NCBI RefSeq assembly: GCF_003228315.1
Contig: NZ_CP029693.1
Coordinates: 3,895,501-3,959,500 of the forward strand
Direction: 5' to 3'
Length of the DNA: 64,000 nucleotides
Origin: Pseudomonas putida
GTDB lineage: Bacteria > Pseudomonadota > Gammaproteobacteria > Pseudomonadales > Pseudomonadaceae
Within the stretch, counting starts at the first letter, position 1; every line of letters begins with the position of its first letter. Position numbers and translations under genes: made by a program. Positions 14,668 through 55,798 of this stretch are shown here, one piece after another. Below the pieces are notes generated by a model that was not told the DNA's origin, did no database searches, and worked only from the letters and a program-made list of their open reading frames with translations.

Positions 14668-15335
14668 ACCCCGGCCTCCCCGTCGCCGATCAATCGACCG
14701 CGCTGCAGCGTCAGCATGCGGTGGCGCATACGCGCAATCAGTGCCAGGTCGTGACTGGCGATCAGCACGCTGGTGCCCAGGCGGTTGATGTCTTCGAAGA
14801 CACCCATGATCTCGGCCGCCAGGCGCGGGTCGAGGTTACCAGTCGGCTCGTCCGCCAGCAGCAAGGCCGGGCGGTGAACAATGGCGCGGGCGATGCCGAC
14901 GCGCTGTTGTTGGCCGGTGGACAGATCGCCCGGATACAGATCGGCCTTGTCCGACAGCGCAACGCGCTCCAGAGCCGAATCCACACGCTTGGCGACCTCG
15001 GCCTTGGACAGACCCAGGATCTGCAACGGCAGCGCGACGTTGTTGAATACAGTGCGATCGAACAGCAACTGGTGGTTCTGGAACACCACGCCGATCTGTC
15101 GGCGCAGGTACGGAATCTGTGCGTTGCTGATGGTGCTCAGGTCCTGCCCAGCGAGCAGCAGCTTGCCACTGGTCGGACGCTCCATGGCCAACAACAGCCG
15201 CAACAGGGTGCTTTTACCGGCGCCGGAATGGCCGGTGACAAACAGAAACTCGCCACGACGGACTCGAAAGCTCAGCTCATGCAAGCCGACGTGACCGTTC
15301 GGATAGCGCTTACCGACCTGTTCGAAACGAATCAT
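14664..15335 (-). CDS. ftsE: Cell division ABC transporter ATPase FtsE
   Basis: A 223-residue ABC ATPase, partner of FtsX. Walker A is GHSGAGKSTLLRLL (about residues 36-49), the signature is LSTGQQQRVGIARA, and Walker B is ALLLADEPTGNLD, with the switch His in IASHDLAL. It overlaps ftsY and ftsX by 4 bases each, so the three are translationally coupled. Confidence 0.97.
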   Translation of the reverse strand: MIRFEQVGKRYPNGHVGLHELSFRVRRGEFLFVTGHSGAGKSTLLRLLLAMERPTSGKLLLAGQDLSTISNAQIPYLRRQIGVVFQNHQLLFDRTVFNNVALPLQILGLSKAEVAKRVDSALERVALSDKADLYPGDLSTGQQQRVGIARAIVHRPALLLADEPTGNLDPRLAAEIMGVFEDINRLGTSVLIASHDLALIARMRHRMLTLQRGRLIGDGEAGV

Positions 15336-22504: not shown

Positions 22505-22597
22505 CTGTAGGAGCGAGCCTGCTCGCGATGGCGATGCGTCAGTCAACATCTCAGTCGATTGACACTCCGCTATCGCGAGCAGGCTCGCTCCTACAGG
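22505..22597. repeat. REPIN, medium interior class, reverse orientation
   Basis: REP pair between the convergent AraC and sulfurtransferase genes. On the minus strand its interior contains GAGATGTTGACTGA, related to the interior at 62327. It begins two bases after the AraC stop. Confidence 0.88.
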
Positions 22598-23505: not shown

Positions 23506-24180
23506 TTATTGCGCGGCTTCTTCAAGCGCCTGTGCCAGCGGAACATAAAACTCTTCGAACAGCGCATTGACCTCATCACGGGCCTGATCGGTGACAAAAC
23601 CGGCCTCAAGCACCAGCACCTGATACACGCCGCGCTTGATCGCTTGCTCGCTGAGGTGGCTGGAGTTCTCCCGCGTGGTGCACAGAAAACGCACCCAGGA
23701 CGTGAGGATGATCCAGGCATTGAGGGTCAGGGACTCGATCTGCACCTTGTCCATGGTCAGGATGCCGGCGGCGACGAACCCTCTGTAGATGGCCGCGCCC
23801 TGAATCAGGCAGCGCTGGGAGAAGCGTCGGTAGCGCGCGGCCAGTTCGCTGTCGCTGTCGAGCAGATGCTCGAGGTCGCGATGCAGAAAGCGGTATCGCC
23901 ACATGGCCGAGAGCAGTTCCTTGAGGTAGAAGCGTTTGTCTTCGACCGTGGCTGCTCGCCCCTGGGGCGGGCGCAGGAAGCTGTCGACGAGGCTTTCGTA
24001 CTCGCTGAACAGCACGGCGATGATCGCCTGCTTGTTGGGGAAGTGGTAGTACAGGTTGCCCGGAGAAATCTCCATGTGGGCAGCGATATGGTTGGTGCTG
24101 ATGCTGCGCTCGCCCTGCTGGTTGAACAGCTCCAGGCTGTTCTGCACGATGCGCTCGCTGGTTTTTATCCTTGGGGCCAT
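23506..24180 (-). CDS. laoR: TetR family repressor, LaoR type
   Basis: A 224-residue TetR regulator. The N-terminal HTH (about residues 9-55) reads RSISTNHIAAHMEISPGNLYYHFPNKQAI; the C-terminal ligand domain has aromatic-rich helices. It is divergent from the aldehyde dehydrogenase gene, and a short palindrome in that promoter fits its operator. In P. aeruginosa the same position is held by LaoR, repressor of the long-chain alcohol genes laoABC; I assign it by synteny and family. Confidence 0.8.
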   Translation of the reverse strand: MAPRIKTSERIVQNSLELFNQQGERSISTNHIAAHMEISPGNLYYHFPNKQAIIAVLFSEYESLVDSFLRPPQGRAATVEDKRFYLKELLSAMWRYRFLHRDLEHLLDSDSELAARYRRFSQRCLIQGAAIYRGFVAAGILTMDKVQIESLTLNAWIILTSWVRFLCTTRENSSHLSEQAIKRGVYQVLVLEAGFVTDQARDEVNALFEEFYVPLAQALEEAAQ

Positions 24181-24326: not shown

Positions 24327-25757
24327 ATGACTGCTGAAATTTCCTACCTGCAAGATCTGCAGCAACCGCTGGCGGAGCTCCAGGCACAGTTTGATGCGCA
24401 GCGCGCCGCCTATGCCGCCAACCCGATGCCACCTGCAGCCCAGCGCCTGCAATGGCTCAAGGCACTGCGCGACTTGCTCGACAGCGAACGCCAGGCCCTG
24501 ATCGATGCGATCAGCCAGGATTTCAGCCACCGCAGCGCCGATGAAACCCTACTCGCCGAGCTGATGCCCAGCCTGCACGGCATTCATTACGCCAGCCGAC
24601 ACCTCAAGGGCTGGATGCGCCCCTCGCGACGCAAGGTCGGCCTGGCCTTCCAGCCGGCTTCGGCCAAGGTGATCTATCAGCCACTGGGCGTGGTCGGGGT
24701 GATCGTGCCGTGGAACTACCCGCTCTATCTCGCCATCGGCCCACTGGTCGGCGCACTGTCGGCGGGCAACCGGGTGATGCTCAAGCTCAGCGAATCGACC
24801 CCCGCCACCGGCCTGCTGATGAAGCAGTTGCTGGCCCGAATCTTCCCCGAAGACCTGGTCTGCGTGGTGCTGGGCGAGGCTGATATCGGCGTGGCGTTTT
24901 CCAGGCTGCACTTCGATCACTTGCTGTTTACCGGCGCCACCAGTATTGGCCGGCACGTGATGCGCGCGGCAGCGGAGAACCTGACTCCAGTCACCCTGGA
25001 GCTGGGCGGCAAATCCCCGGCCATCGTGTCCCGTGACGTACCCCTCGAAGACGCCGCCGAGCGCATCGCGTTTGGCAAAACCCTCAACGCCGGCCAGACC
25101 TGCGTGGCCCCGGACTACGTGCTCGTGCCGGACGATCGCATCGGCTCGTTCGTCGAGGCTTATCGCCAGGTGGTCCGCAGCTTTTATCCGACACTGGTCG
25201 ACAACCCGGACTACACCGCCATCATCAATGACCGACAACTGGCGCGGCTCAACGGCTACCTCAGCGACGCGACCAGCAAGGGCGCGCTGTTGATTCCGCT
25301 GTTCGACCAGGGCCAGGGACGTCGCATGGGGCATAGCCTGTTGCTCAACGTCACCGACGACATGACGGTGATGCAGGACGAAATCTTCGGCCCGCTGCTG
25401 CCGATCGTGCCGTACTCGGATCTCGACCAGGCATTTGCCTACATCAACCAGCGCCCTCGCCCACTGGCGCTGTACTACTTCGGCTACGACAAGCGCGAAC
25501 AACAGCGCGTGCTCCACGAAACCCATTCCGGCGGCGTGTGCCTGAACGACACCCTGCTGCATGTCGCCCAAGACGACATGCCCTTCGGCGGCATCGGTGC
25601 CTCGGGCATGGGCCATTACCACGGTCACGAAGGCTTCCTGACCTTCAGCAAGGCCAAGGGTGTGCTGGTCAAACAGCGCTTCAATGCGGCGAAACTGATT
25701 TACCCGCCCTACGGCAAATCCATTCAGAAACTGATCCAGAAGCTGTTCATTCGCTAA
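24327..25757 (+). CDS. laoC: Aldehyde dehydrogenase LaoC (coniferyl-aldehyde-dehydrogenase-like)
   Basis: A 476-residue NAD(P)-dependent aldehyde dehydrogenase. The general base is Glu225 in LELGGKSP and the nucleophile Cys259 in NAGQTCVAPDY. It belongs to the short class-3-like group often labelled coniferyl aldehyde dehydrogenase. Its C-terminus has a basic, amphipathic end (KLIQKLFIR) suited to membrane contact. With laoB and laoA it matches the P. aeruginosa LaoABC set that oxidises long-chain alcohols, in which this enzyme turns the aldehyde into a fatty acid. GGAG precedes the ATG. Confidence 0.88.
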   Translation: MTAEISYLQDLQQPLAELQAQFDAQRAAYAANPMPPAAQRLQWLKALRDLLDSERQALIDAISQDFSHRSADETLLAELMPSLHGIHYASRHLKGWMRPSRRKVGLAFQPASAKVIYQPLGVVGVIVPWNYPLYLAIGPLVGALSAGNRVMLKLSESTPATGLLMKQLLARIFPEDLVCVVLGEADIGVAFSRLHFDHLLFTGATSIGRHVMRAAAENLTPVTLELGGKSPAIVSRDVPLEDAAERIAFGKTLNAGQTCVAPDYVLVPDDRIGSFVEAYRQVVRSFYPTLVDNPDYTAIINDRQLARLNGYLSDATSKGALLIPLFDQGQGRRMGHSLLLNVTDDMTVMQDEIFGPLLPIVPYSDLDQAFAYINQRPRPLALYYFGYDKREQQRVLHETHSGGVCLNDTLLHVAQDDMPFGGIGASGMGHYHGHEGFLTFSKAKGVLVKQRFNAAKLIYPPYGKSIQKLIQKLFIR

Positions 25758-25782: not shown

Positions 25783-26331
25783 ATGATGGATCAGACCCTG
25801 TCCGAAACGCCCGCGCTGTCACGGCGCGGCCTGCTCAAGTTCAGCCTGGGCGCCAGCGCCTTTCTCGCCACCGCCGGATTGGGCGCCAGCCTGAGTGGTT
25901 GTTCATCGAGCATCCCCGAGAGCGGTTTCGCAGCGCTGCGCAGTGGTGACCTGCTGTTTCTGCGTGCGCTGATCCCGGTGCTGCTCGACGGTGCCGTGAC
26001 CGCTGAACAGATGCCCGCTGCCATCGACGGCACCCTGAAAAGCCTCGACTACAACCTCGATCACCTGTCGCCGGAAATGCTCAAGCTGACCCGTCAATTG
26101 TTCGATGTGTTGGGCATGGCCGTGACACGGGGACCACTGACCGGCATCTGGGGCAGCTGGGAAAACGCCAGCGGTGATGAGATCCGGCATTTTCTCGATC
26201 GCTGGGAAAACAGCTCGCTGAGCCTGCTGCGCATGGGCCATAGCTCGTTGGTGCAGCTGGTGATGATGGCCTGGTATGGGCGCAAGGAGTCGTGGGCGCA
26301 TTGCGGGTATCCCGGGCCTCCAACCGTTTGA
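25783..26331 (+). CDS. laoB: Tat-exported lipoprotein LaoB, small subunit of the alcohol dehydrogenase
   Basis: A protein of about 182 residues. The N-terminus has a twin-arginine motif (SRRGLLKFS, about residue 13), a hydrophobic stretch and then a perfect lipobox LSGC with Cys at about residue 40, so it looks like a Tat-exported lipoprotein. The rest resembles the small gamma subunit of gluconate or fructose dehydrogenases. Two adjacent ATGs (25783, 25786) are both possible. It follows laoC by 25 bases. Its likely role is to carry the folded FAD subunit LaoA through Tat and hold it at the membrane; this is inference from related dehydrogenases. Confidence 0.82.
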   Translation: MMDQTLSETPALSRRGLLKFSLGASAFLATAGLGASLSGCSSSIPESGFAALRSGDLLFLRALIPVLLDGAVTAEQMPAAIDGTLKSLDYNLDHLSPEMLKLTRQLFDVLGMAVTRGPLTGIWGSWENASGDEIRHFLDRWENSSLSLLRMGHSSLVQLVMMAWYGRKESWAHCGYPGPPTV

Positions 26332-26346
26332 GACCGAGTTGCCCCA

Positions 26347-26438
26347 ATCGCGAGCAAGCTGTGCTCCCACAGGCTCAGCGTCGTACGCGGGTGCCCGGCA
26401 TGACATCAAATCTGTAGGAGCAAAGCTTGCTCGCGATG
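26347..26438. repeat. REPIN inside the lao operon
   Basis: REP pair (ATCGCGAGCAAGCTGTGCTCCCACAGG ... CTGTAGGAGCAAAGCTTGCTCGCGATGG) between laoB and laoA, an uncommon place because it splits an operon. The stem bases are worn on both arms. Confidence 0.85.
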
Positions 26439-26487
26439 GCATCGGTTGCCTCACCACAAAATCCAAAAACAATAAGAGAACCTGAAG

Positions 26488-28083
26488 ATGCCCGTACCCG
26501 ACCCGTTCCGCGAAGGCATGGCCCGTGGCTGGAAAACCCATGACGGCTCGCAACTGACCCAGGACCTGACCCTCGAAGCGGATGTGGCGATCATCGGCAG
26601 TGGCGCCGGTGGCGGGACCACGGCGGAAATCCTCAGCGCGGCCGGTTACAAAGTGCTGCTGATCGAGGAAGGCCCGCTCAAGACCAGCAGCGATTTCAAA
26701 CTGCTCGAAGACCAGGCCTACAGCAGTCTCTATCAGGAAGGTATCGGCCGTATGAGCAAGGATGGCGCCATCACCATCCTTCAGGGCCGGGCCGTGGGCG
26801 GCACCACGCTGATCAACTGGACGTCCAGTTTCCGCACGCCCGAGCCGACCCTGGAACACTGGGCCAAGGAGCACAACGTCAAGGGCCACAGCCCGGCTGA
26901 GATGGCGCCGTGGTTCGAGAAAATGGAGCAGCGCCTGGGCGTCGCGCCGTGGATGGTGCCGCCCAATGCCAACAATGATGTGATCCGCAAAGGTTGCGAA
27001 CAGCTTGGCTACAGCTGGCACGTGATCCCGCGCAACGTGCGCGGCTGCTGGAACCTCGGCTACTGCGGCATGGGCTGCCCGACCAACGCCAAGCAATCGA
27101 TGATGGTCACCACCATTCCCGCCACCCTCGAAAAGGGCGGCGAACTGCTGTATCTGGCCCGCGCCGAAAAACTACTGATCACTGGCGACAAGGTCACCGG
27201 ACTGCAATGCGTGGCGATGGATGCGCGCTGCGTCGAGCCCACGGGGCGGCGCATCACGGTGAAGGCTCGGCATTACGTGCTGGCCGGTGGCGGGATCAAC
27301 AGCCCGGCGCTGCTGATGCGTTCCGACGCGCCGGACCCACACAAGCGGCTGGGCAAACGGACCTTTCTGCATCTGGTGAACATGTCCGCCGGGCAGTTCG
27401 ACGAGGTGATCAACCCGTTCTATGGCGCCCCGCAATCAATCTACTCCGACCATTTCCAATGGCAGGACGGCACCACCGGCAAAATCGGCTACAAGCTGGA
27501 GGTCCCACCGCTGCACCCGGCGCTGGCCACCACGCTGCTTGGAGGATTTGGCCAGGAAAATGCGCAACACATGGCCAGCCTGCCACACACCCACGCCATG
27601 CTCGCGTTGCTGCGCGACGGTTTTCATCCGGACAGCACCGGCGGCGATGTCGAGCTGCGCGGCGACGGCTCACCGGTACTCGATTACCAGGTTTCATCCT
27701 ATGTCCGGGACGGTTTGCGCCGGGCATTTCACAGCATGGCCGAGATCCAGTTCGCCGGTGGCGCCAAGGCCGTGATGCCGATGCACGCTGATGCGCGCTA
27801 TGTGAAAACCCTGGGCGAAGCGCACGCACTGATCGACGGGCTCAGCCTTGAGCTGTACCGCACACGGCTGGGCAGCGCCCATGTGATGGGGGGTTGTGCG
27901 ATGGGCGAAGACCCGAAAAATGCGGTGACTGACAGCCTCGGCCGGCATCATCAACTGGGCAATCTGTCGATTCATGATGGTTCGCTGTTCCCCACCAGCA
28001 TTGGCGCCAACCCGCAATTGTCGGTCTACGGATTGACGGCGCAACTGGCGACTTCCCTCGCCGAACGCTTGAAAAACCCATGA
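26488..28083 (+). CDS. laoA: GMC-type FAD alcohol dehydrogenase LaoA
   Basis: A 531-residue GMC oxidoreductase. The FAD-binding Rossmann motif is VAIIGSGAGGGTTAE (about residues 33-47), followed by LIEEGP and the GMC signature GRAVGGTTLINWT (about 108). The active-site His lies in HVMGGCAMG near residue 466 with the closing SIGANPQLSVYGL motif. A CxxxxYCGMGCP stretch at about 188-199 is typical of this subgroup. It has no signal peptide, which fits co-export with LaoB. It is separated from laoB by 156 bases holding a REPIN. P. aeruginosa LaoA oxidises long-chain alcohols. Confidence 0.87.
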   Translation: MPVPDPFREGMARGWKTHDGSQLTQDLTLEADVAIIGSGAGGGTTAEILSAAGYKVLLIEEGPLKTSSDFKLLEDQAYSSLYQEGIGRMSKDGAITILQGRAVGGTTLINWTSSFRTPEPTLEHWAKEHNVKGHSPAEMAPWFEKMEQRLGVAPWMVPPNANNDVIRKGCEQLGYSWHVIPRNVRGCWNLGYCGMGCPTNAKQSMMVTTIPATLEKGGELLYLARAEKLLITGDKVTGLQCVAMDARCVEPTGRRITVKARHYVLAGGGINSPALLMRSDAPDPHKRLGKRTFLHLVNMSAGQFDEVINPFYGAPQSIYSDHFQWQDGTTGKIGYKLEVPPLHPALATTLLGGFGQENAQHMASLPHTHAMLALLRDGFHPDSTGGDVELRGDGSPVLDYQVSSYVRDGLRRAFHSMAEIQFAGGAKAVMPMHADARYVKTLGEAHALIDGLSLELYRTRLGSAHVMGGCAMGEDPKNAVTDSLGRHHQLGNLSIHDGSLFPTSIGANPQLSVYGLTAQLATSLAERLKNP

Positions 28084-28741: not shown

Positions 28742-29032
<291 letters not shown>

Positions 29033-34879: not shown

Positions 34880-35227
34880 CACCGCGCCCTGTAGGAGCGA
34901 GCATGCTCGCGATGGTCGTCAACGATAACGCGGGAAACCTGACACCCCGCGGCGCCCTTGAGTCCATCGCGAGCATGCTCGCTCCTACAGGACCCGGTCC
35001 GTGCGTCTTGTGCACGCGCGCAGGCATTCCCTCCAGCCGCCAGCCGTGTAGAATCGCGAACATTCATCGCCAGTCATCCCCGGCGGGTTTATGAGCTCAA
35101 GCTGAAGCGCGCGGCGATCCCGCAAAGTTATCGGCAACCTTTGGACACACGGCCATTTCCGAGTACTCCAGACGTCACTAGAAGCTCACTTCCCTTTTGA
35201 TACCTGATTAGCCGCCCGGAGTGCTTC
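34880..35227. other. Region between RAYT and ilvD: REPIN plus ilvD leader
   Basis: The first part is the REPIN at 34888-34991. The remaining 236 bases hold no supported gene. TAGAAT at 35049-35054 could be a -10 for ilvD but lacks a clear -35, and the leader from there would be about 170 bases. No leader peptide rich in Ile, Leu or Val was found, so attenuation is not supported. Confidence 0.4.
34888..34991. repeat. REPIN, long class, GAGCATGCTCGC tip on both arms
   Basis: Third copy of the variant long REPIN, 8 bases after the RAYT stop. Both arms have the perfect palindrome GAGCATGCTC. The interior has an inner hairpin (CGCGGG ... CCCGCG). Confidence 0.92.
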
Positions 35228-37140: not shown

Positions 37141-37240
37141 CTGTAGGAGCGAGCCTGCTCGCGATGGACGACAGGGCACCGCGGGGTATCAGGCAGCCAG
37201 CGTCATCGTTGACGACCATCGCGAGCAGGCTCGCTCCTAC
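37141..37240. repeat. REPIN, long class, reverse orientation
   Basis: REP pair of 100 bases between convergent ilvD and the phosphatase gene. On the minus strand the interior reads CGATGGTCGTCAACGATGACG, like the copies at 32768 and 34227. Arms have the common GAGCCTGCTCGC tip. Confidence 0.9.
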
Positions 37241-53130: not shown

Positions 53131-53940
53131 TTATGCTGCCGCGGGCGCTGCCGGTGCACGGTGATAAGCCAGCCAGATCAGCAACAGACCGCCGACGATC
53201 ATCGGCACGCACAACACCTGACCCATGGTCAGCCAGTTCCAGGCCAGATAGCCCAGCTGCGCGTCCGGTACGCGGACGAATTCAACGATGAATCGGAAGA
53301 TGCCATAGAACAGCGCGAACATGCCGGACACGGCCATGGTCGGCCGTGGCTTGCGCGAGAACAGCCACAGGATCAGGAACAGTGCCACGCCTTCGAGCGC
53401 GAACTGATACAGCTGCGACGGGTGGCGCGGCAACTGCGCCGGGTCGCTGAATGGCGGGAAGATCATCGCCCATGGCACGTCGGTCGGCTTGCCCCACAGC
53501 TCGGCGTTGATGAAGTTGCCGATACGCCCGGCGCCCAGGCCGATCGGCACCATCGGTGCGACGAAGTCCATCAACTGGAAGAACGACTTGTTGTTCTTCT
53601 TGCCGAACCACAGCGCCGCCAGCATCACGCCGATGAAGCCACCGTGGAACGACATGCCACCTTTCCAGACCTCGAAGATCAGGGTCGGGTTGGCCAGGTA
53701 GGCGTGCAGATCGTAGAACAGCACATAGCCCAGACGTCCGCCGACGATCACCCCCATCGACATCCAGAACACCATGTCGGAGAGTTTTTCCTTGGTCCAG
53801 GTCGGATCGAAGCGGTTCAGGCGACGGGAGGCCAGCAGCCAGGCGCCGCCGATGCCGATCAGGTACATCAACCCGTACCAGTGGATTTTCAGCGGACCGA
53901 TGGCCAGGGCCACCGGATCGATCTGCGGGTAAGGCAGCAT
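53131..53940 (-). CDS. lgt: Prolipoprotein diacylglyceryl transferase
   Basis: A 269-residue seven-helix inner-membrane enzyme that moves diacylglyceryl from phosphatidylglycerol to the lipobox Cys of prolipoproteins. The Lgt signature [15 protein letters not shown] (about residues 136-150) with its essential Arg and Asn is intact, as are the early GLMYLIG and the HGG of [10 protein letters not shown] (about 102). Upstream of thyA and downstream of the TauE gene on the same strand. Confidence 0.96.
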
Positions 53941-55685: not shown

Positions 55686-55708
55686 ATTTGAGCTGTTTGG
55701 GCTGGCCC

Positions 55709-55785
55709 CATCGCGAGCAGGCTCGCTCCTACAGGGTTTTGTGGTGTTCACAAATCCACTGTGGGAGCGAGCCTGCTCGCGATGG
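55709..55785. repeat. REPIN, short form
   Basis: REP pair (CATCGCGAGCAGGCTCGCTCCTACAGG ... GTGGGAGCGAGCCTGCTCGCGATGG) between the convergent NRDE and ptsP genes. Confidence 0.9.
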
Positions 55786-55798
55786 GGTCGTCAGCGTT

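Follow-up and report, generated by a model that had tools for sequence, protein, structure and literature searches.

A 64,000-nucleotide stretch of the Pseudomonas putida contig NZ_CP029693.1 (positions 3,895,501 to 3,959,500 of the forward strand; hereafter the window) carries laoB and laoA, which encode a small protein with a twin-arginine translocation (Tat) signal and a flavin adenine dinucleotide (FAD)-dependent alcohol dehydrogenase. We propose that LaoB is a Tat-targeted small subunit that exports folded LaoA and stays held on the membrane, and that electrons leave LaoA through an Fe-S cluster to a general acceptor, a reading to which, as a whole, we assign a probability of about 0.72. 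New are the predicted 3Fe-4S exit on LaoA and the observation that the lipobox of LaoB comes and goes while its Tat signal is constant. The following features are central:

25783 to 26331, plus strand: laoB, open reading frame (ORF) starting with ATG, 182 amino acids; Tat small subunit and putative escort
25819 to 25845, plus strand: Tat motif SRRGLLKFS, LaoB residues 13-21, read from the sequence
25891 to 25902, plus strand: lipobox LSGC, LaoB residues 37-40, followed by Ser-Ser-Ser, read from the sequence
26488 to 28083, plus strand: laoA, ATG ORF, 531 amino acids; alcohol dehydrogenase, a GMC flavoprotein with no signal peptide
27046 to 27078, plus strand: Cys187-x5-Cys193-x3-Cys197 of LaoA (CWNLGYCGMGC), 3Fe-4S ligands predicted from conservation and alignment

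Export signal, lipobox and family of LaoB

The N-terminus of LaoB, MMDQTLSETPALSRRGLLKFSLGASAFLATAGLGASLSGCSSS, contains two arginines followed by a hydrophobic stretch, an arrangement that is kept in its relatives: all 29 aligned LaoB sequences have both arginines, as do all 52 LaoB proteins encoded beside LaoA. Together with the ORFs, this conservation confirms what a sequence-only reading of the window had described, namely SRRGLLKFS and then LSGC in LaoB and no signal in LaoA. The same reading proposed that Tat exports LaoB with LaoA as its passenger, which is well supported by the invariant arginines and by a 2021 paper whose title calls the LaoA-LaoB complex of P. aeruginosa Tat-dependent; because of this title the escort idea counts as already published in outline for P. 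aeruginosa. Among 29 LaoB relatives, 15 match the Pfam Tat model PF10518 weakly, the best E-value being 0.0031.

The 52 LaoB proteins stem from 59 fetched loci, 56 of which hold LaoB-like and GMC frames together. The LaoB profile matched 61 frames in the 59 loci, and the 52 kept as LaoB proper all have laoA directly 3' of laoB. We dropped three frames that were matched via the signal region and lack LaoA (L196-L198), and six of the bridge or Gluconate_2-dh3 kind described below (L176, L177, L178 twice, L179 and L195). The automated count gave 50 LaoB beside LaoA; we included L168 and L183 manually, as in both of them the open frame of LaoB overlaps with that of LaoA. A first lipobox pattern misplaced L180 and L181, and the RR and lipobox figures are taken from a clean recount. 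For the Gluconate_2-dh3 sample used for comparison, 30 loci were fetched out of 75 places found, and the 27 with a clear RR frame were kept.

Taking [LVI][ASTVIG][GAS]C after a hydrophobic stretch as the mark of a lipoprotein, the LSGC of LaoB is a lipobox, and 35 of the 52 LaoB proteins have one (30 strict, five relaxed: LQGC three times, LHGC and MSGC). Its cysteine lies about 26 residues past the first Arg with nearly constant spacing. The remaining 17 proteins either carry a non-canonical QTGC (two; L172 and L173) or no cysteine at this position (15). In the 37 proteins with a cysteine the residue that follows it is Ser (31), Ala (five) or Gly (one) and never Asp. We then followed the lipobox on a LaoA tree with 55 rows, from which one LaoA fragment beside an intact LaoB was excluded (L159 3704-3943, also L104; genome G060), this being a pseudogene or an assembly fault. 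The LaoAB lineages branching first from the outgroup are without lipobox, the first split having a support of just 84/75, and the order-level group mostly has it, and one outgroup row, L176, itself has a lipobox. Five changes of the no-lipobox label are needed on this tree, and at least four of them are forced by well supported branches. Thus, with the twin arginines in 52/52 and the lipobox in 35/52 proteins, Tat targeting is constant among LaoB proteins and the lipid site is variable, which separates export from anchoring.

From its sequence, a lipid anchor on LaoB is likely but optional. The sequence-only reading had considered such an anchor an unusual addition, a view that has to be given up, as six of the 27 sampled Gluconate_2-dh3 small subunits also have a lipobox and a lipid-tagged Tat escort is therefore not unique to LaoB; yet the anchor is dispensable, given the 15 proteins without the cysteine. 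A signal-peptidase I type motif, [AVS]xA, is absent in 13 of these 15 as compared to 5 of 21 lipobox-less Gluconate_2-dh3 proteins in a crude count, and this scarcity suggests that LaoB is held on the membrane either by a lipid or by an uncleaved signal helix.

LaoB did not reach the cut-off of any family in Pfam or NCBIfam, and PF13618 (Gluconate_2-dh3) was also not found in this genome. The LaoB profile does match five proteins in L176-L179, each encoded beside a LaoA-like GMC enzyme, which we call bridge proteins; tested against the Pfam Gluconate_2-dh3 model, two of them pass the cut-off, two fall below it and one gives no match. With signals removed, hhalign compared LaoB to the bridge proteins at a probability of 98.4% (E 6e-15; 99.0% with signals in), the bridge proteins to the 27 Gluconate_2-dh3 proteins at 96.0% (5e-9), and LaoB to these 27 directly at 51.7% (1.5e-4). 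We read LaoB as a putative far branch of the Gluconate_2-dh3 escorts, linked to them via the bridge proteins. Like the members of this family LaoB is a small protein with an RR signal; unlike them it carries YPGPP near its C-terminus, a motif absent from the sampled family consensus, and none of 29 LaoB proteins matches the Pfam model. The GMC/Tat-small-subunit pairs of loci L176-L179 are of a second type, which shares the Cys triad and is intermediate between the LaoAB and Gluconate_2-dh3 pairs; L178 contains two such pairs consecutively. Eukaryotic fatty alcohol oxidases may also have an N-terminal part that resembles LaoB.

The AlphaFold2 model of LaoB is all-helical with a mean predicted local distance difference test (pLDDT) score of 84. 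Its best fold match, an ATP synthase chain over 75 residues with a VIA Z of 5.1, was rejected, this level being common for helical proteins; the absence of solved small subunits from the PDB match lists of LaoB does not speak against a relationship. Searches of the PDB with profiles built from the bridge proteins and from 14 Gluconate_2-dh3 proteins likewise gave no solved small subunit, and for this reason a link from LaoB to the small subunits of fructose and glucose dehydrogenase proper is not established.

The predicted Fe-S site of LaoA and the electron acceptor

LaoA consists of GMC_oxred_N/C domains and has no signal: the GxGxxG motif for FAD begins at about residue 37, so that just about 30 residues lie ahead of the Rossmann fold, and RR occurs in 1 of 35 LaoA leaders. 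A hydropathy score of the leaders gave no discrimination and was not used. In the PDB the LaoA profile scored best with FAD glucose dehydrogenase (3e-28), followed by fructose dehydrogenase (7.5e-28), out of 91 GMC-type sequences below 1e-10. The AlphaFold2 model of LaoA (mean pLDDT 91.7) gave a similar picture, the large subunit of fructose dehydrogenase taking ranks 1-7 (TM ~0.73) and FAD glucose dehydrogenase ranks 8-9.

All 35 LaoA and LaoA-like sequences retain Cys187, Cys193 and Cys197. These residues align with Cys212, Cys218 and Cys222 of FAD glucose dehydrogenase, which, as stated in a passage of PMC6719666, bind a 3Fe-4S cluster. LaoA thus possesses the cysteine triad of FAD-dependent dehydrogenase complexes as a predicted cluster site. 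As a control, we searched the other GMC proteins of the genome: among nine of ten PF00732 matches, the weak tenth of which did not match the LaoA profile, C-x5-C-x3-C is present in LaoA alone. Since the triad aligns with 3Fe-4S ligands, electrons are likely to pass from FAD to the Fe-S cluster first. The sequence-only reading had left the electron acceptor open; the predicted 3Fe-4S exit would narrow this to the part of the route beyond the cluster and makes the question directly testable. If the cluster is assembled in the cytoplasm, this would also account for the need to export LaoA in its folded state. The passages of the literature that name lao genes mention neither an Fe-S site in LaoA nor a family or lipid for LaoB, the 2018 and 2021 papers on LaoAB being places that may contain them and no search having combined these topics.

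LaoAB resembles the FAD glucose dehydrogenase of Burkholderia cepacia (gamma-alpha-beta) and the fructose dehydrogenase of Gluconobacter in its GMC catalytic subunit with the aligned Cys triad, and in its separate small subunit, which is a Tat hitchhiker in these enzymes according to a passage of PMC6719666. It differs from them in that the lao cluster has no multihaem cytochrome subunit and LaoB has no match in sequence or fold to a solved small subunit. Moreover, LaoA has Trp188 where glucose dehydrogenase has the second, neighbouring Cys of its gamma-alpha disulfide. A weak local alignment also places Ile109 at the position of His105, the covalent FAD-linking residue of glucose dehydrogenase.

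Between positions 15000 and 40000 of the window no frame of at least 90 amino acids contains the haem motif CxxCH, so the sequence-only reading was right in finding no cytochrome subunit at the locus. Such frames occur in 9 of the 56 loci with LaoB-like and GMC frames, with two motifs near the locus end in L145, L159, L160 and L163 and a single motif in L153, L167 and L177. At least three motifs were found in L172 and L173 alone, which belong to one genus, so that a multihaem cytochrome c subunit accompanies the gene cluster in just 2 of 56 loci; for comparison, three-motif frames are present in 4 of 20 Gluconate_2-dh3 loci. In both L172 and L173 a four-haem cytochrome is encoded about 2 kb upstream of laoB on the opposite strand:

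L172, 367 to 2085, minus strand: four-haem cytochrome
L173, 379 to 2097, minus strand: four-haem cytochrome

The cytochrome of L172 matches the beta subunit of glucose dehydrogenase (1.2e-51) and the cytochrome subunit of an aldehyde dehydrogenase (2.2e-55). These two loci also encode a Tll0287-like haem protein directly 3' of laoA (L172 6237-6890 and L173 6256-6903, both plus strand; family checked in L172). A gene for a wax ester synthase flanks the other side in L172.

A cytochrome of this kind encoded elsewhere and co-varying with LaoAB had been suggested as a check. The host genome has one (G000:C1:6292681-6293664); among genomes with LaoB matches the count is 13 of 44, and among the others 30 of 150, an association that is not significant (Fisher p 0.22, no kinship correction). 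Moving G101 and G171, whose matches are of the bridge kind only, gives 13/42 and 30/152 (p 0.14, likewise uncorrected for kinship). Genomes with Gluconate_2-dh3 do track the cytochrome (22/50, p 1.2e-4, again no kinship correction); 188 genomes were searched for Gluconate_2-dh3 and 194 for LaoB and for the cytochrome. Because of the 2 of 56 loci and the non-significant genome association, a dedicated cytochrome partner of LaoAB is unlikely, which leaves a general acceptor, i.e. a quinone or a soluble cytochrome.

Proposed mechanism and alternative explanations

We suggest the following course, in which lipidation, cluster, acceptor and final location of LaoAB are inferred from the sequences. 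In the cytoplasm LaoA would acquire FAD and probably a 3Fe-4S cluster, fold and dock on LaoB, and the folded pair would cross the inner membrane via the twin-arginine signal of LaoB (hitchhiker export). LaoB would then stay membrane-bound: in this strain a lipid on Cys40 most likely holds it, and lipobox-less relatives are probably held by a signal helix that is not cleaved. In the envelope LaoA would oxidise long-chain primary alcohols at FAD; a general acceptor (quinone or soluble c-type cytochrome), and no dedicated multihaem subunit, would receive the electrons that leave via the Cys187/193/197 cluster, and LaoC would subsequently oxidise the resulting aldehyde. If this is true, LaoAB is a small cytochrome-free hitchhiker dehydrogenase. 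A more far-reaching version, which we put forward only tentatively and consider somewhat doubtful, is that LaoAB forms a two-subunit branch of the hitchhiker enzymes whose cytochrome was lost or never gained, an Fe-S flavoenzyme anchored by the lipid of its escort, perhaps to the outer membrane on its inner side. It would hand the electrons of fatty alcohols to a general acceptor in the envelope, and its anchoring (lipid or uncleaved helix) would have been swapped several times with Tat targeting fixed.

Several results weigh against the proposed mechanism. The LaoB of the window stays under the Tat cut-offs of Pfam (11.2 vs 22.7 bits) and NCBIfam (9.4 vs 16.7), and it has no direct sequence or fold match in the PDB to a solved escort subunit. 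The aligned cysteine stretch of LaoA is moderately strong by itself (i-E-value 9e-5), and cholesterol and choline oxidases, which are also GMC enzymes, follow close behind in the LaoA fold list.

The attachment of LaoB might differ from the one proposed. If LSGC were unprocessed, LaoB of every species would be held on the inner membrane by its Tat signal helix, left uncleaved, and the cysteine would be incidental, in agreement with the 15 cysteine-less relatives, 13 of them also lacking [AVS]xA, and with QTGC in L172 and L173. The lipobox at near-constant distance from the RR pair in 35 of 52 proteins argues against this, as does the presence of Lgt, the lipoprotein diacylglyceryl transferase, which the host genome encodes together with TatC (main lgt copy within the window, about 53173-53916, minus strand), and we regard this explanation as unlikely. 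Alternatively, lipidated LaoB could be Lol-sorted to the outer membrane, LaoA then being located on its inner leaflet and needing a soluble electron carrier. In E. coli, Asp at position +2 is the rule for retention in the inner membrane, and this residue is never found after the cysteine of LaoB, where Ser, Ala or Gly stand; a cluster near the surface would also suit a soluble acceptor. However, the sorting rules for lipoproteins differ in Pseudomonas, the lipobox-less relatives would have to be on the inner membrane and LaoA would have no access to the quinone pool, rendering an outer-membrane location rather improbable.

Other objections concern the composition of the complex and the side of the membrane. 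LaoAB could be part of a three-subunit complex of the fructose/glucose dehydrogenase type with a multihaem cytochrome encoded elsewhere in the genome, as the four-haem cytochromes near laoBA in L172 and L173, the match of the former to a glucose dehydrogenase beta subunit, the cytochrome of the host and the slight excess in LaoB genomes (13/44 vs 30/150) might indicate. With such a gene in just two of 56 loci and p values of 0.22 or 0.14, whereas Gluconate_2-dh3 genomes track the cytochrome, we hold this to be very unlikely. Finally, LaoB could be an inner-membrane anchor only, with LaoA remaining on the cytoplasmic face. LaoA has no signal of its own, passages in PMC7318663 and PMC10045523 call LaoB an inner membrane (transport) protein, and a ferredoxin-like frame is located 0.7 kb downstream of laoA (28781-29032). 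As the RR pair is invariant and the 2021 title states Tat dependence, we give a cytoplasmic LaoA hardly any credence and retain export of LaoA by LaoB as the preferred reading.

Gene order, relatives and neighbouring features

The two genes are part of a larger cluster, to which the following features belong:

23506 to 24180, minus strand: laoR, divergent TetR-type regulator (TetR_N and PF13972)
24327 to 25757, plus strand: laoC, aldehyde dehydrogenase for the next pathway step (Aldedh, 291 bits)
26347 to 26437, no strand: inverted pair of arms resembling repetitive extragenic palindromic (REP) sequences, 26 nucleotides each, 92% complementary, between laoB and laoA

The order of a divergent TetR gene, an aldehyde dehydrogenase, a small Tat protein and a GMC dehydrogenase is that of LaoABCR. 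The window shares gene set and order with LaoABCR of P. aeruginosa PAO1 (PA0364-PA0367) as described in a passage of PMC7318663, and by this description, used in place of the PAO1 sequences, no difference of kind was found. Passages in PMC13291428, PMC7318663 and PMC6107682 assign the P. aeruginosa system to the oxidation of long-chain alcohols from detergent and alkane breakdown. The first oxidation step for these alcohols falls to LaoAB. For P. putida KT2440, a passage of PMC13291428 gives 70% (LaoA) and 55% (LaoB) identity to PAO1 and reports that deletion of the homologous pair left growth on C16 or C20 alcohols unimpaired. The homologous laoABCR of P. laurylsulfativorans AP3_22 (locus L031 here) was, according to a passage of PMC6107682, not differentially expressed under the sodium dodecyl sulfate conditions tested.

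Within the order of the window, 44 of 194 genomes have a LaoB match, two of which (G101 and G171) are of the bridge kind only. Across the phylum the profile matched in 35 of 398 genomes, and two matches outside the class cover just the first 68 of 188 profile positions. In L167 (4013-9119) the laoB-laoA pair is present twice in tandem behind a single laoC.

The REP-type pair between laoB and laoA may set the LaoB:LaoA ratio. A REP-like motif, defined by a loose pattern and differing in sequence, is present in the laoB-laoA gap of 73 of 80 Pseudomonas loci, and 46 have an exact inverted repeat of at least 12 bp. The ferredoxin-like small frame mentioned above (plus strand) has two cysteine clusters and follows a 159-amino-acid frame 3' of laoA. 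In the window as a whole we counted 24 REP-like matches with up to three mismatches, compared to a mean expectation of 0.10; several of them form close inverted pairs, and the copies include 22515-22586, 34899-34980, 37151-37232 and 55707-55786.

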